Of a stretch of 48,423 nucleotides of DNA, positions 43,504 through 48,401 are shown one piece after another. A program made the position numbers and the translations under genes. The notes beneath the pieces are model-generated. The model searched no databases and was not told the DNA's origin. It saw only the letters and a program-made list of their open reading frames with translations. This DNA is from Halorubrum yunnanense. GTDB taxonomy: Archaea; Halobacteriota; Halobacteria; Halobacteriales; Haloferacaceae. Numbering within the stretch: position 1 is the first letter of the stretch; every line of letters starts with the position of its first letter. The stretch is from contig NZ_JAODIX010000046.1 in assembly GCF_026586675.1 (NCBI RefSeq), forward strand, positions 1 through 48,423. Direction: 5' to 3'.

Positions 43504-43577
43504 GGGCCGGTAGCTCAGTTAGGGAGAGCGTCCGGCTTTTAACCGGACGGTCGGGGGTTCGAATCCCTCCCGGCCCG
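43504..43577 (+). tRNA. tRNA-Lys (TTT anticodon)
   Basis: A 74-base cloverleaf. The acceptor GGGCCGG (43504-43510) pairs with CCGGCCC (43570-43576), discriminator G. The anticodon stem TCCGG/CCGGA holds the loop CTTTTAA, anticodon TTT. The T-loop is TTCGAAT. CCA is not encoded. Its 3' end is repeated several times downstream. Confidence 0.97.
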
Positions 43578-44178
43578 TTTTCCTGCGACCGCCGGGAGCA
43601 GTGAAAACGCCAGAGGGATTCGAATCAGGGAACGGAGCGAAGCGGAGTGACCGTGGTTCGAATCCCTCCCGGCCCGCTGTACCGCCGCGAGCAACATCGC
43701 GAGCGGCGGTGCTGTGCTGAGGGAGGGTTCGAACCAGGGAGCACGCAGCGCCGAGCGAAGCGAGGCGACCGTGCGAGTGGGGTTCGAATCCCGTCGCACC
43801 CGTTCCCTTCACTTCGTTCGGTCACGGGCGCGACTGGCTCCACGCTCGCTTCGCTCGCGTGGATCCCTCCCGGCCCGCTGTACCGCCGCGAGCAACATCG
43901 CGAGCGGCGGTGCTGTGCTGAGGGAGGGATTCGGAACCCTGCCAGAGGCAGCCCGCGCAGCGAAGCGAGCAGGAACCTCTGGCTTTGGTTCGAATCCCTC
44001 CCGGCCCGTTTTCCTGCGACCGACGGGAGCAGTGAAAACGCCAGAGGGATTCGAACCAGGGAGCACGCAGCGCCGAGCGAAGCGAGGCGACCGTGCGAGT
44101 GGGGTTCGAATCCCGTCGCACCCGCTCCCTTCACTTCGTTCGGTCACGGGCGCGACTGGCTCCACGCTCGCTTCGCTC
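43578..44178 (+). repeat. Mosaic array of tRNA 3'-end copies
   Basis: The last bases of tRNA-Lys, TCGAATCCCTCCCGGCCCG, recur at 43655-43676 (complete), 43861-43877 (partial) and 43987-44008 (complete). A second tRNA-like end, TTCGAATCCCGTCGCACCCG, occurs at 43783-43802 and 44105-44124. Inverted T-arm pieces (AGGGATTCGAA) lie at 43614, 43731 and 44044. The spacers are themselves repeated: 43577-43630 matches 44008-44061, 43676-43727 matches 43877-43928, and 43728-43857 matches 44051-44178. There is no gene in the array. Confidence 0.88.
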
Positions 44179-44222: not shown

Positions 44223-45227
44223 TCAGTCGTTGCGACGCGTCGCGAGCAGCGCGGCCGCGACGAGCGCGACGAGCGCGACGAGCGGACCGAAGCCGGGGAC
44301 GTCGAGGATGCTGGAGTCGTCGTCCTCGCCGTCGGTACCGTCGTCACCGTCGGCACCATCGTCGCCGTCGGCACCGTCGTCACCGTCGGCACCGTCGTCA
44401 CCGTCGTCGCCGTCGGCCGCGAGGACGGTGATCGTGCCGGTCACGCTGTCGTCTGACGTCTCGACGACGAGGTCATACTCGCCGGGCTCGACGTCGACGG
44501 TGGCGTCGGTGAACTCGACGGTGGTCGTCTCGTCTCCGTCGAGCTCGACCGACTGCGTGCCGATCGTCTCGTCGCCGACGCGGAGGTCGACGTCCTGGGT
44601 GTCACCGGAGATCCCGTCGGACTCGAGCTCCGCGCTGACGGTGATCGACTCTCCCTGCGTCACCTCTGTCGACGCCGGGTCGAGGTTCGAGACGAGGAAG
44701 TCGGCGGCGAGCGAGCCACCGCCACCGCCGCCACCGCCGCCTCCTCCGGCGGTGTCGTCGCCGTCGTCGCCGCCGTCGCCGCCGTCGCCGCCATCGTCAC
44801 CGCCGTCGCCGCCGTCACCGTCTTCGAACGCTCCGGCCGGGAATACGAGGCTCTCCTCGTAGACGCCCGGTTCGAGAGCGTACGTCGACTCCGACTGCGG
44901 TCCGTCCGCAGAGCCGATGTGGAATCGAACTTCCTCGCCGGCGTTGCTGTCGACGCGTAGCTTGTCGTCGGTCGCGTCACCGCCACCGAACTGTCCGGCA
45001 GTCTCGACGGTGATCGACCCTTCGACGGACGTGTCACCGTTCTCATCGATGGCGACCGCATAGATCGTCGTGTCCACCGGGGCAGCAGCGCCGTCGGCGT
45101 CTTCGACCGAGCCGTAGAACGACGCCGGGTCACCCGGTGGCGACTCCTGCGCCGTCGCTACTGCTGCACCGCCGGTCACGACGGCCAAGGCGATCATCGC
45201 GACGACCAACGTGTGTTTGAGCGTCAT
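44223..45227 (-). CDS. PGF-CTERM-anchored surface protein
   Basis: A 334-residue secreted protein. It has a signal peptide (LVVAMIALAVVTGGAAVATA), an N-terminal domain, a Gly/Asp hinge (about 140-172, ending in a run of glycines), a beta-sandwich domain with a CARDB-like pattern (STEVTQGESITVSAELESD), a second Asp/Gly repeat spacer (GADGDDGADGDDG), and a C-terminal VPGFGPLVALVALVAAALLA followed by RRND. The PGF motif, helix and basic tail are the archaeosortase signal, so the protein should be cleaved and lipid-anchored. It starts 30 bases after the larger surface gene, probably in one operon. Confidence 0.9.
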   Translation of the reverse strand: MTLKHTLVVAMIALAVVTGGAAVATAQESPPGDPASFYGSVEDADGAAAPVDTTIYAVAIDENGDTSVEGSITVETAGQFGGGDATDDKLRVDSNAGEEVRFHIGSADGPQSESTYALEPGVYEESLVFPAGAFEDGDGGDGGDDGGDGGDGGDDGDDTAGGGGGGGGGGGSLAADFLVSNLDPASTEVTQGESITVSAELESDGISGDTQDVDLRVGDETIGTQSVELDGDETTTVEFTDATVDVEPGEYDLVVETSDDSVTGTITVLAADGDDGDDGADGDDGADGDDGADGDDGTDGEDDDSSILDVPGFGPLVALVALVAAALLATRRND

Positions 45228-45257: not shown

Positions 45258-48200
45258 TTATACCACATTCACGCTATCCCCAGTACTGGCCGTACTCGAG
45301 TATCCCGGCAGGACGATCTGCCGGCTGTCGTTCTCGTAGAGGTATACGTAGTAGGCTGCGTGGTTCTCAACTGTGTCGTCGTTGTCCAGCTTCGTCCCGG
45401 GTAGGGATTTCAGCTGGACGTCGGTGACATCAGTTTCTGGGCCGTTCTCAATGGCCAAGTCCTCGTCGAGAGTGATTGTGGAGCTGCTGATATTGTAGTT
45501 CGATCCAACGATATGCCAGCCCTCGCCCATATCGACGCTGCCGACGTTGGTCTGCGGACCGCTACGGTCCTCGTCGTAGGCGAATCCGTACTCAGCGCCG
45601 TCGGATTCGGCGTTGACGAACAGCGCGTTGTGGACGCGCTGGACCTGCCCTGCCGGGCTGTAGGACCCGAAGTCTTCCGCGTCTTCAGCGGCATCAGCGT
45701 CGTAGTACGTCACGTCACTGATGTTGTCACCGGCAACGAACTCACCGGGCATCGGCTGCGAGGTGAGCGCCCAGCCTTCGTCCTGCGTGAAGGCCTCGTG
45801 GACGTAGGTGACGTTCTGCGTGTTGGTAACTTCAGCGCCCGCAACGTCAACGGTCACTTCGCTGCCGACCTCAACATTACCTTGATCGATATCACCAGGT
45901 GTAGTGATGTCGACCGTCGCGGAATCACTGAACCGGTTCGGCGACACGTCGAAGGATTCACCGCCGATTTCGACATCAACATCGTCGCTTGCGTCGATAA
46001 CTTTCGTTCCGTTATCGTCAGCGAAGCCGGTAACTGTTACTGTCGGGTTGCCTGTCTTATCGACATCGGTGCCGATCAGTTCAGTGTCTATCTCGGTGCT
46101 CTCGACGGTCGCGAGGTCACCAGCGATCTCGTTGCTGACTTCATCGGTGCTGTCGTCAGCCTGGAGTGCTGCACCGTTGTCACCCTGGATGTCGACACTT
46201 CCAGGTTCATCTATCGTCAGCACTGCATCCTCAAGGTTATCTCCTGCTCTGACTGCAGAGGAGGCTGACCCAGAGGTCGAGGTGAATTCGACAGCAACTT
46301 CGTTACCCTGAACCGCAACTATCTCATCACCAGCCTGGAACTCGATAGAAACATCTGGTGTGTTGGACTCGAATTTGAGTCCGCTAACGTCGTCAGAACC
46401 GACTTCATCAACATTTTGGTCGAAAGCGAGTACGATCTCACCGTTTCCATTATCAGCGTTGTTCACATCGACATCGTCGACAGTCGCGTTCATTAGCTGC
46501 GGTGATGGTGAGAGCGGATTCGTCACGCTGACAGTCTCGTCAAGTGCAACAGCACTTGAACCGGATGCATCGACTGAAGCTCCGTCAGCATCAGCGTAGC
46601 TGAGCGTGATACCCCTGTCAGTATCACTGAAGCCCGGATCGAGAGTCAGCGAGAACTGGTCTGCATCGCCATCATCATTGATACCATTCAGTTCAGCGGT
46701 CGTGCCACTGAGAGTGAAGGCATCATCATTGCCTGGCGCGACTACGTCTTCGCTGTAGGTTAGCTGAATGTTCGATTCAGTTTCAGTAACATCCGTAATG
46801 AACGGCTGGATGTTGTTCGTTACGCTTTCAGTGGTGAACTGTGACGGCTGTTCGTCCTGCGCATTGAGGAGTGCGCCCGATGGCGTGTAATCGATTGTCA
46901 CACCCGTCGAGGAGTCAACATTGTTCGGCTCGTTGACAACAGAGCCGGCGGACGTGTGATCGTTACCGTTATTGAAGACGACTGTGTCTCCGTTTTTGAT
47001 CTCTTCGAAGGCGTCCTCCTCAAGCGAGATCGCAGTTCCACTGGTGTCGAATTCCGAGACAACTTCGGACGGTGTGCCAGCGCGGCTGATATCCTCGGTG
47101 AACGTCACGTTGAGGTACTGGCCACGCTCGCTCAGCTCTGCCGTGATACCGACGTTGTTCGCAACGTCTTTGTCACTGAAGGTTCCAACTGGTTCTTCAG
47201 TACCACTGGCAGCGATGAACGGTTCTGCCTCGTCACCGCTTGGACCGCTCGCACCGCCCTTATTGTACGTCAGTGCCCCGCTAAGATCTGCAGTCGACGG
47301 TACATCCGTTGAACCACCGTCTTCTGGGCCAAGGTTCAGAACGATCGTGTCCCCGCTATGGCTCGACAGATTTCGGACGCGGTACGTAGTACCTCCAACA
47401 TCTTGAAGTGTGAATGCGTCAGTCACCGCACTGTCGATATTCCCGCTACCGACATCGGTCTGAACATCTTCGGTGAACGTGACTCTCAGTTGATCCGGGT
47501 TCTCGTCGGTCACTTCGGCCGATTCAAGCGTCGGAACAACGTTGTTCGACGCGCCGGTATTGATTGCTTCCGTACTGACGCCGGCCAGCGACTGGATGGC
47601 GTCACTACCGCTTGAGTACTTAAGCGTCAGGTCACCGTCACCGGCTTCAACTGCTTCGCTCAGCGTGATCGTTACCTCAGCATTACCGTTATCAATGCTA
47701 ACGTCGTCAGTGATCGTCGCGTCAGTGCCACTGAGGGTGAAGCCATCAGTGGGATTGTCATCTCCTTGTTCAAGCGCAGCGTTGCTGTCGCCGTCATCGA
47801 AGGTCACCACGAGTTCATCTCGCGGATCTGCGACCGTTGCACCCGTGATGTTCGGTGCGATGGTATTGGACACAGCACCGCTGCTGACTGCAACCGTTTC
47901 TCCGCTTGAGGTGGAGATGAGGTCGCCCGTTGCTGCAGTATCGTCATAACTCAAATCATCGAAGTCGTCTGCAGGCTGGACTTCGGGATCAACTCCAACG
48001 ATAACTTGGTCTTGCTCTCCGGCATCGGCGTTCTCGACAACAGTTGTGTTGGAACTGTAAGTACCGAAGGTGAATACGCCACTACCATCGAACGAACTTG
48101 CCTGAGCGTCGATCTCCTCGCTGAAGGTGACGACGAGCTCCGGTCGGTCGTCATTAGTGACCTCCGCAGATTCGAGTGTCGGGAAGGTGTTCCCTTGGAC

Positions 48201-48401
48201 ACTCTCATCTTTTGAGGTGGAGAGTGCAGGAACATCCGAGTCGCTTTGCAGAACGACCACGTCGTCGCTGCTGGTCGTTTCGCCGCCATTATCTGCTGCA
48301 CCCTGATAATCGACGGTTAGCTCGTCCGTACCGATTGAACTGTTGATGTAGCCATGCCTTGTTGAACGCAAGACTGCGTCGGGGTAGGGTCGATAACTCA
48401 C
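45258..48401 (-). CDS. Large repetitive surface protein, 5' end probably displaced
   Basis: A 1047-residue acidic, Thr/Ser/Asn-rich protein with at least six related Ig-like units (PTLESAEVTNDDRPELVVTF, PTLESAEVTDENPDQLRVTF, NITGATVADPRDELVVTF, FITDVTETESNIQLTYSEDV). Each starts with a 'V..P.L..A.V' strand and ends 'ISLxY.G'-like, as in SwmB-type surface repeats. Many N-x-S/T sites are present. No signal peptide or C-terminal anchor is seen. The reading frame starts at GTG 48401 with SYRPYPDAVLRSTRHG, unlike the rest, and an in-frame TGA lies at 48414-48416. The true N-terminus is probably lost; see the IS finding. GC content is visibly lower than in the other genes. Confidence 0.8.
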   Translation of the reverse strand: MSYRPYPDAVLRSTRHGYINSSIGTDELTVDYQGAADNGGETTSSDDVVVLQSDSDVPALSTSKDESVQGNTFPTLESAEVTNDDRPELVVTFSEEIDAQASSFDGSGVFTFGTYSSNTTVVENADAGEQDQVIVGVDPEVQPADDFDDLSYDDTAATGDLISTSSGETVAVSSGAVSNTIAPNITGATVADPRDELVVTFDDGDSNAALEQGDDNPTDGFTLSGTDATITDDVSIDNGNAEVTITLSEAVEAGDGDLTLKYSSGSDAIQSLAGVSTEAINTGASNNVVPTLESAEVTDENPDQLRVTFTEDVQTDVGSGNIDSAVTDAFTLQDVGGTTYRVRNLSSHSGDTIVLNLGPEDGGSTDVPSTADLSGALTYNKGGASGPSGDEAEPFIAASGTEEPVGTFSDKDVANNVGITAELSERGQYLNVTFTEDISRAGTPSEVVSEFDTSGTAISLEEDAFEEIKNGDTVVFNNGNDHTSAGSVVNEPNNVDSSTGVTIDYTPSGALLNAQDEQPSQFTTESVTNNIQPFITDVTETESNIQLTYSEDVVAPGNDDAFTLSGTTAELNGINDDGDADQFSLTLDPGFSDTDRGITLSYADADGASVDASGSSAVALDETVSVTNPLSPSPQLMNATVDDVDVNNADNGNGEIVLAFDQNVDEVGSDDVSGLKFESNTPDVSIEFQAGDEIVAVQGNEVAVEFTSTSGSASSAVRAGDNLEDAVLTIDEPGSVDIQGDNGAALQADDSTDEVSNEIAGDLATVESTEIDTELIGTDVDKTGNPTVTVTGFADDNGTKVIDASDDVDVEIGGESFDVSPNRFSDSATVDITTPGDIDQGNVEVGSEVTVDVAGAEVTNTQNVTYVHEAFTQDEGWALTSQPMPGEFVAGDNISDVTYYDADAAEDAEDFGSYSPAGQVQRVHNALFVNAESDGAEYGFAYDEDRSGPQTNVGSVDMGEGWHIVGSNYNISSSTITLDEDLAIENGPETDVTDVQLKSLPGTKLDNDDTVENHAAYYVYLYENDSRQIVLPGYSSTASTGDSVNVV

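Follow-up and report, generated by a model that had tools for sequence, protein, structure and literature searches.

The window that we analysed is a stretch of 48,423 nucleotides from Halorubrum yunnanense, the source genome of which (G000) comprises 3.17 Mb in 116 contigs. A tRNA-Lys(TTT) gene on the forward strand is followed directly by an array of tandem units of 75–131 nt each. We write S for a spacer hairpin, i for an inverted T-arm, L for the second hairpin, T for a copy of the tRNA-Lys 3' end, t for a T-arm copy with an Arg-like acceptor end and rA for an Arg-type module; the features are as follows.

43504–43577, + strand: tRNA-Lys(TTT), the array anchor (ARAGORN and Rfam RF00005, 70.6 bits)
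43578–43612, + strand: unit 1, spacer hairpin S1 (CTGC-GA-CC..GG-GA-GCAG, tandem G.A; from sequence and tandem-GA test)
43613–43624, + strand: unit 1, inverted T-arm GAGGGATTCGAA (from sequence comparison)
43625–43654, + strand: unit 1, hairpin module L1 (TCAGGGAACGGAGCGAAGCGGAGTGACCGT)
43655–43676, + strand: unit 1, exact copy of the tRNA-Lys 3' end (shuffle-controlled match)
43677–43721, + strand: unit 2, spacer hairpin S2 (CCGCCGC-GA-GC..GC-GA-GCGGCGG; from sequence and tandem-GA test)
43722–43733, + strand: unit 2, inverted T-arm, variant
43734–43780, + strand: unit 2, hairpin module L2
43781–43802, + strand: unit 2, T-arm copy with Arg-like acceptor end GTCGCACCCG
43803–43861, + strand: Arg-type module rA, its GA strand on the opposite strand
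43862–43877, + strand: shortened copy of the tRNA-Lys 3' end (GATCCCTCCCGGCCCG)
43878–43922, + strand: unit 4, second S2 (100% repeat at offset 201)
43924–43935, + strand: unit 4, inverted T-arm with one mismatch
43936–43986, + strand: unit 4, hairpin module L3 (GCCAGAGG..CCTCTGGC)
43987–44008, + strand: unit 4, exact copy of the tRNA-Lys 3' end (shuffle-controlled match)
44009–44043, + strand: unit 5, second S1 (offset 431)
44044–44055, + strand: unit 5, inverted T-arm
44056–44102, + strand: unit 5, second L2 (offset 322)
44103–44124, + strand: unit 5, T-arm copy with Arg-like acceptor end
44125–44178, + strand: second Arg-type module, truncated, where the array ends

The module order is thus S1-i-L1-T, S2-i-L2-t, rA-T(short), S2-i-L3-T, S1-i-L2-t, rA(truncated), and a canonical unit reads, 5' to 3', an S hairpin, the exact reverse complement of the T-loop and the T-stem 3' strand, an L hairpin and a copy of the tRNA 3' end. 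The original prediction had described three direct repeats of the tRNA-Lys end with inverted T-arm copies between them and spacers in a changed order, and all of this stood up to controlled comparison. The last 20 nt of tRNA-Lys(TTT) recur exactly at 43657–43676 and 43989–44008, and a third, shortened copy (ATCCCTCCCGGCCCG) ends at 43877, while 100 dinucleotide-shuffled versions of the window contained no match to the 20-nt end at three or fewer mismatches. The inverted T-arm occurs at 43613, at 44044 and, with one mismatch, at 43924, and gave six matches in total against 0.32 expected. The repeats at offsets of 201, 322 and 431 cover 66 nt of S2 (100% identity), 132 nt of L2-rA (98%) and 76 nt of S1 (97%), respectively. 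On the minus strand, the array (43519–44165) yields overlapping spurious open reading frames with GREGFEP and GRDSNPR motifs that will probably be taken for hypothetical proteins, which bears on annotation. Downstream, also on the minus strand, lies a gene for a 334-aa protein (44223–45227) with a run of 9-nt repeats (44316–44423), followed by a gene for a repetitive protein of 1047 aa, probably a surface protein (45258–48401).

We compared the tRNA-Lys(TTT) locus of the source genome with that of 34 congeners, in a collection with a single genome for each species. Every one of the 34 carries modules or decayed remnants in a differing mix of S and L, with both flanks conserved. An S hairpin stands directly after tRNA-Lys in nearly all of them, and the same S1 recurs in six (G002, G007, G008, G012, G017 and G023); in most, the 3' end is present in one to five copies, and two (G031 and G034) retain decayed remnants only. 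The 1.5 kb upstream of tRNA-Lys is about 87–93% identical in the closer pairs and the downstream gene 88–96% identical among genomes; in 14 genomes this gene starts only 193–408 nt behind tRNA-Lys, and the modules in between differ almost every time. Assembly from short reads can collapse or chimerise repeats, and an array produced by repeat misassembly had to be considered. However, 30-odd independent assemblies show an array of this kind following tRNA-Lys, and among them are single-contig or near-complete genomes (G026, G018, G015, G019 and others), so that we regard the chance of an artefact as negligible.

The Lys loci contain six types of S and five of L in many pairings, so that S and L assort freely with the joint at the inverted T-arm; the module joins are located at T-arm copies. 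One congener (G026) has amplified a single unit in tandem, giving four units spaced 111 nt apart, and in Halorubrum sodomense (L165) one L is inverted between inverted T-arms. The Arg-type modules within the Lys arrays document exchange between tRNA loci, the rA module also standing behind tRNA-Arg(CCT) and tRNA-Arg(CCG) of the source genome. Recombination clearly builds and reshuffles the array, which supports the original prediction in part; repeated integration and loss of integrase elements, the agent that it proposed, found no support, as set out below.

A search for other tRNA loci with the same spacers had been proposed with the original prediction, and further loci with such units were found. 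In the source genome, the terminal 19 nt of the tRNA recur about 60–410 nt downstream of Arg-CCT, Leu-CAA, Leu-TAA, Lys-CTT, Lys-TTT, Met-CAT, Val-CAC, Val-TAC and the Asp pair, and upstream only where the second full tRNA-Asp gene stands. With the Trp and Leu-TAG loci, which bear units as well, about 11 of some 42 tRNA genes are occupied, and every canonical unit has the order described above: S, reverse complement of T-loop and T-stem, L, tRNA end. A copy of the T-stem 5' strand was considered for the inverted arm and rejected: the arms read GAGGG/AAGGG and the 5' strand GGGGG/GAGGG, so the arms are true reverse complements. An orphan array (L042, C37:32256–32440, minus strand) has a Pro-type tRNA end (GGGCGGTCCCA) with no tRNA in front; it lies about 4.9 kb downstream of tRNA-Pro(TGG), whose T-arm differs, and it looks as if the tRNA-Pro locus had been split or replaced there.

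For the wider distribution we used a first pattern free of tRNA acceptor information (TTCGAANCAGGGARCG..GGTTCGAATC), and a scan over 84,980 bacterial and archaeal species returned 100 stretches, all with haloarchaeal titles. In the first 80 loci, 75 of 82 matches lay 36–273 nt behind a tRNA on the same strand, comprising 17 kinds of tRNA, and the 3' copy was nearly always the end of the tRNA in front; several of the seven remaining matches are contig edges, displaced tRNA halves or, in one case, an inverted unit. A second, hairpin pattern (GATTCGAA..GGTTCGAATC) matched 58 of 72 haloarchaeal genomes and none of 224 other Halobacteriota genomes, the reversed pattern used as control gave no match at all, and an exact-match pattern for the Val-TAC and Gln-TTG units was found in 33 of 145 haloarchaeal genomes from 21 genera; since the searched loci were partly chosen by pattern, such class-wide percentages depend on the pattern, while the own-genome and Lys-locus sets were chosen without one. 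Haloferax species are among the bearers of units, at the Val-CAC, Pro-CGG and Arg-CCT loci. Unit length over the loci ranged from 30 to 204 nt, with a median of 110. Phage and plasmid DNA searched with the Lys array gave no match. The pattern scans of IMG/VR contained a single genuine unit, behind a tRNA-Glu (L083), further listed matches being unrelated sequences or viral tRNA genes. Within what was searched, the cassette family is restricted to haloarchaea.

The copied segment has sharp borders. Identity between the copy and the adjacent tRNA is 93–100% over positions -1 to -22 (G52 to the discriminator), falling to 24% at -23 and to about 40–57% just past the discriminator; two G's of the copy may belong to L instead of the tRNA, in which case the tRNA-derived part spans 17–22 nt. 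Compared with a control of other tRNAs, the inverted arm scores higher only in the T-stem (arm positions 3–6) and not in the acceptor. At mismatches between a copy and its tRNA, the arm mostly agrees with the tRNA (14 versus 3 cases), which fits a shared origin and is no proof of insertion. Compensatory change between an arm and its own copy, at which the Met and Leu-CAA cases had hinted, was rejected on the larger set, which pointed the opposite way (3 versus 14). It had also been suggested that the copies keep a possible RNase Z cut site, from which short hairpin RNAs could be released. This is unsupported, because the copies of the acceptor 3' strand have no 5' partner inside the units (best 7-nt complement 5.14 versus 5.36 in shuffled sequence), and a minihelix substrate, with the acceptor stem stacked on the T-arm, was accordingly discarded.

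Could each copy be an old att site from which a full-length element has since been deleted? Archaeal elements are known to use the stretch from T-loop to 3' end as an att region (PMC8371274), a Haloglomus SNJ2-family element has a 17-nt core at G57–73, and a direct copy flush with the tRNA terminus, as at the att sites of tRNA-targeting tyrosine integrases, is present in the units (the -1 to -22 identity). Like such sites (SNJ2, HF2 and SSV types), the units are direct, tRNA-restoring 3'-end copies stacked at one locus. Unlike such sites, they have no integrase element between the copies, and the copied piece is about 22 nt long, the att cores being 13–57 nt in the cases that we read and 8 to >100 bp in archaea elsewhere (PMC8371274). 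Real integration events also looked different. In the source genome, an integrase element sits in tRNA-Leu(TAG) with a core of about 57 nt: on one contig (C60) the intact tRNA is followed by element DNA, and on another (C34), at the other end of the element, a tRNA copy from the anticodon region to the 3' end is followed by the Leu-TAG cassette, which is on the chromosome side. The same order, with the cassette outside the element, was seen in Haloglomus (SNJ2-family integrase, 17-nt core) and in H. coriense, so that units lay outside the element at all three attR sites read. The attP regions of four viruses of the SNJ2 family (SNJ2, Halfgib1, Harhisp1 and Humcor2) have no T-arm copy and neither S nor L in their arms, and no element-side module was found at integrase-adjacent tRNAs of the genus (Gly-TCC, Thr-GGT, Glu-CTC, Leu-TAG). 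Integrase-like genes stand in just 4 of 100 unit loci, no tyrosine-recombinase gene is listed on the window contig (C58), and the searches of mobile DNA gave one viral match and none in phage or plasmid. On the strength of the attL/attR comparisons in the three genomes and the four viral attP regions we rejected integrase scars as the main cause and consider this origin, which the original prediction had favoured, very improbable. SNJ2-family integrases occur in Halobacteria only (PMC8371274), a range that the units appear to share, and one of them has a T-loop core, which is only a hint of a possible link. Several haloarchaeal integrase elements have in common, close to their att cores, a motif resembling GCCGTCTTGCGATT, seen both beside tRNAs (L108, L111, L117, L118, L127) and in the attP of SNJ2 (L254/L259), Halfgib1 (L260) and Harhisp1 (L261); it is possibly an integrase arm site.

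The hairpins themselves carry a strand-specific signature. In 82 of 121 S segments, 5'-GA-3' stands opposite 5'-GA-3' within the hairpin, compared with 6 of 121 on the opposite strand and 4.6 in shuffles; most other dinucleotides gave counts of 0–7, and the higher counts of CG (24) and GC (21) are probably a register effect. The pairs flanking the GA vary (G-C, C-G, A-T, T-A) while the GA is kept. Among 20 aligned L modules, 96.7% of cells are paired and three of the six pairs show changes on both sides; the paired cells, the double-change cells and the covariation score all exceed those of 500 of 500 shuffles. The hairpin formed by inverted T-arm, L and T-arm copy is likewise structured, with sequence-variable, covarying stems. 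Plain folding energies of the L modules gave a mean z of only -0.72, probably an underestimate, as tandem G.A is scored as an internal loop. In 161 of 194 segments the GA lies on the strand of the tRNA; of the opposite-facing exceptions, 27 in number, most are the Arg-type module and one is the true L inversion of H. sodomense. Tandem sheared G.A pairs are stable in both RNA and DNA, and the natural reading is that the constraint acts on a single strand, either RNA or folded DNA. In Rfam, only the tRNA itself passes the gathering threshold, other matches being far under the cut-off, and GA hairpins outside the units showed no consistent placement behind genes in the genome (9 versus 12). Hairpins with GCGAACGAAGTGAGC occur in near-identical intergenic copies (CTATAGGCGCTAAGCCCCCGTCCTCAAGGAGCGAACGAAGTGAGCGAGTAGGGCGGGGATACAGCGCC; L295, L298, L303, L306, L307, L308, L312), which look like an IS605/TnpB omega-RNA. 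A second dispersed family of intergenic hairpins, of about 70 nt (GCAGGCGACGCAAGCACCGCAGGGAGCGAACGAAGTGAGCGACCGAGGAGCGCAGCGAGCGTGCGCC), is found on both strands (L294, L297, L300, L301, L304, L309, L310, L311, L313).

Covariation and sense orientation would fit a transcribed RNA equally well, and for this reason a functional trailer is the main rival to an origin by insertion: the tRNA transcript would continue into S and L, the hairpins of which would shield it, end it or aid its processing, with selection keeping the hairpins and the T-arm pairing. The placement of S immediately behind the tRNA in nearly every congener agrees with such a role, as does the recurrence of a similar GA hairpin in intergenic copies presumed to be omega-RNA-like. 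However, most tRNAs of the source genome lack units and their presence is patchy, the Arg-type module is oriented the opposite way, the acceptor 3'-strand copy is without a partner and has no obvious use in an RNA, the arms ignore changes in the unit's own copy, and no Rfam family matches. We therefore think this explanation possible, if on balance unlikely.

The near-palindromic T-arm sequence, the joins at T-arm copies, the tandem amplification in G026 and the chimaeric copies with Arg-like ends could all be accommodated by enzyme-free rearrangement, that is, template switching at the T-arm palindrome together with gene conversion with the adjacent tRNA, S and L being spread by homologous recombination. 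Slippage alone, though, would not stop at the discriminator, and the same sharp ends are found over about 20 kinds of tRNA; the same L1 module behind 17 kinds would require repeated import, and in the other Halobacteriota scanned, whose tRNAs are similar, units are absent. To us this makes an enzyme-free origin rather improbable.

Our preferred reading, to which we would give somewhat less than an even chance, is that the array is one case of a family of gene-less haloarchaeal cassettes that enter tRNA genes exactly at the 3' end and are later reshuffled at T-arm repeats. The canonical cassette consists of an S hairpin, an inverted T-arm, an L hairpin and a copy of tRNA bases 52–73. A new S-invT-L cassette would insert precisely at the segment from T-loop to discriminator and duplicate it, leaving the tRNA intact, and resident cassettes would then swap S and L halves, and sometimes invert, by recombination at the T-arm repeats. 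Plain target duplication does not account for the tailored inverted T-arm within the insert. The strand-specific hairpin suggests that the substrate would be a folded single strand, and the likeliest agent may be a putative recombinase, restricted to haloarchaea and acting in trans. Our searches found no cassette enzyme, circular form or mobile copy, the sole IMG/VR contig having its unit behind a tRNA-Glu.

Several known systems share features with the units. REP/BIME and MITE/PATE-like elements are likewise short, intergenic, non-coding, strand-specific hairpins in tandem or mosaic clusters, and the units share with REP/BIME a strand-specific palindrome with a conserved mismatch motif (GA, 82 versus 6 of 121), but the units stand at tRNA 3' ends, their arms and end copy are tailored to the tRNA and they have no fixed terminal sequence. 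Casposon or CRISPR-like insertion also produces a fixed-length duplication at a tRNA 3' end, of 14–15 nt for Cas1-type enzymes as against about 22 nt here, but the units have an inverted target piece inside the insert. Integron arrays (attI, attC), in which cassettes ending in a structured, sequence-variable hairpin site follow a fixed anchor, have the same topology, and the hairpin of inverted T-arm, L and T-arm copy would be the counterpart of that recombination site; here the cassettes are gene-less, the anchor is a tRNA and no integrase was found nearby (tyrosine recombinases in only 4 of 100 loci). A gene-less integron-like system, with the tRNA 3' end as docking site, folded single-strand, tRNA-tailored hairpins as sites and a haloarchaea-specific recombinase, is a more speculative version of our preferred reading that we hold to be quite unlikely.

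Prophage-derived partial copies of tRNAs (PMC3119063) and tRNA fragments that arose through integration (PMC9897764) are on record, and a search of the open-access literature, with subscription journals outside its coverage, found no description of such cassettes. The feature stands behind about a quarter of the tRNA genes of the source genome and, by the strict pattern, in about four fifths of the sampled haloarchaea. It singles out tRNA 3' ends as places where non-coding DNA turns over fast and in modules with no visible element, which bears on the site choice of integrases and on the role of tRNA trailers, and the origin of stacked tRNA fragments becomes testable in the genetically tractable Haloferax.
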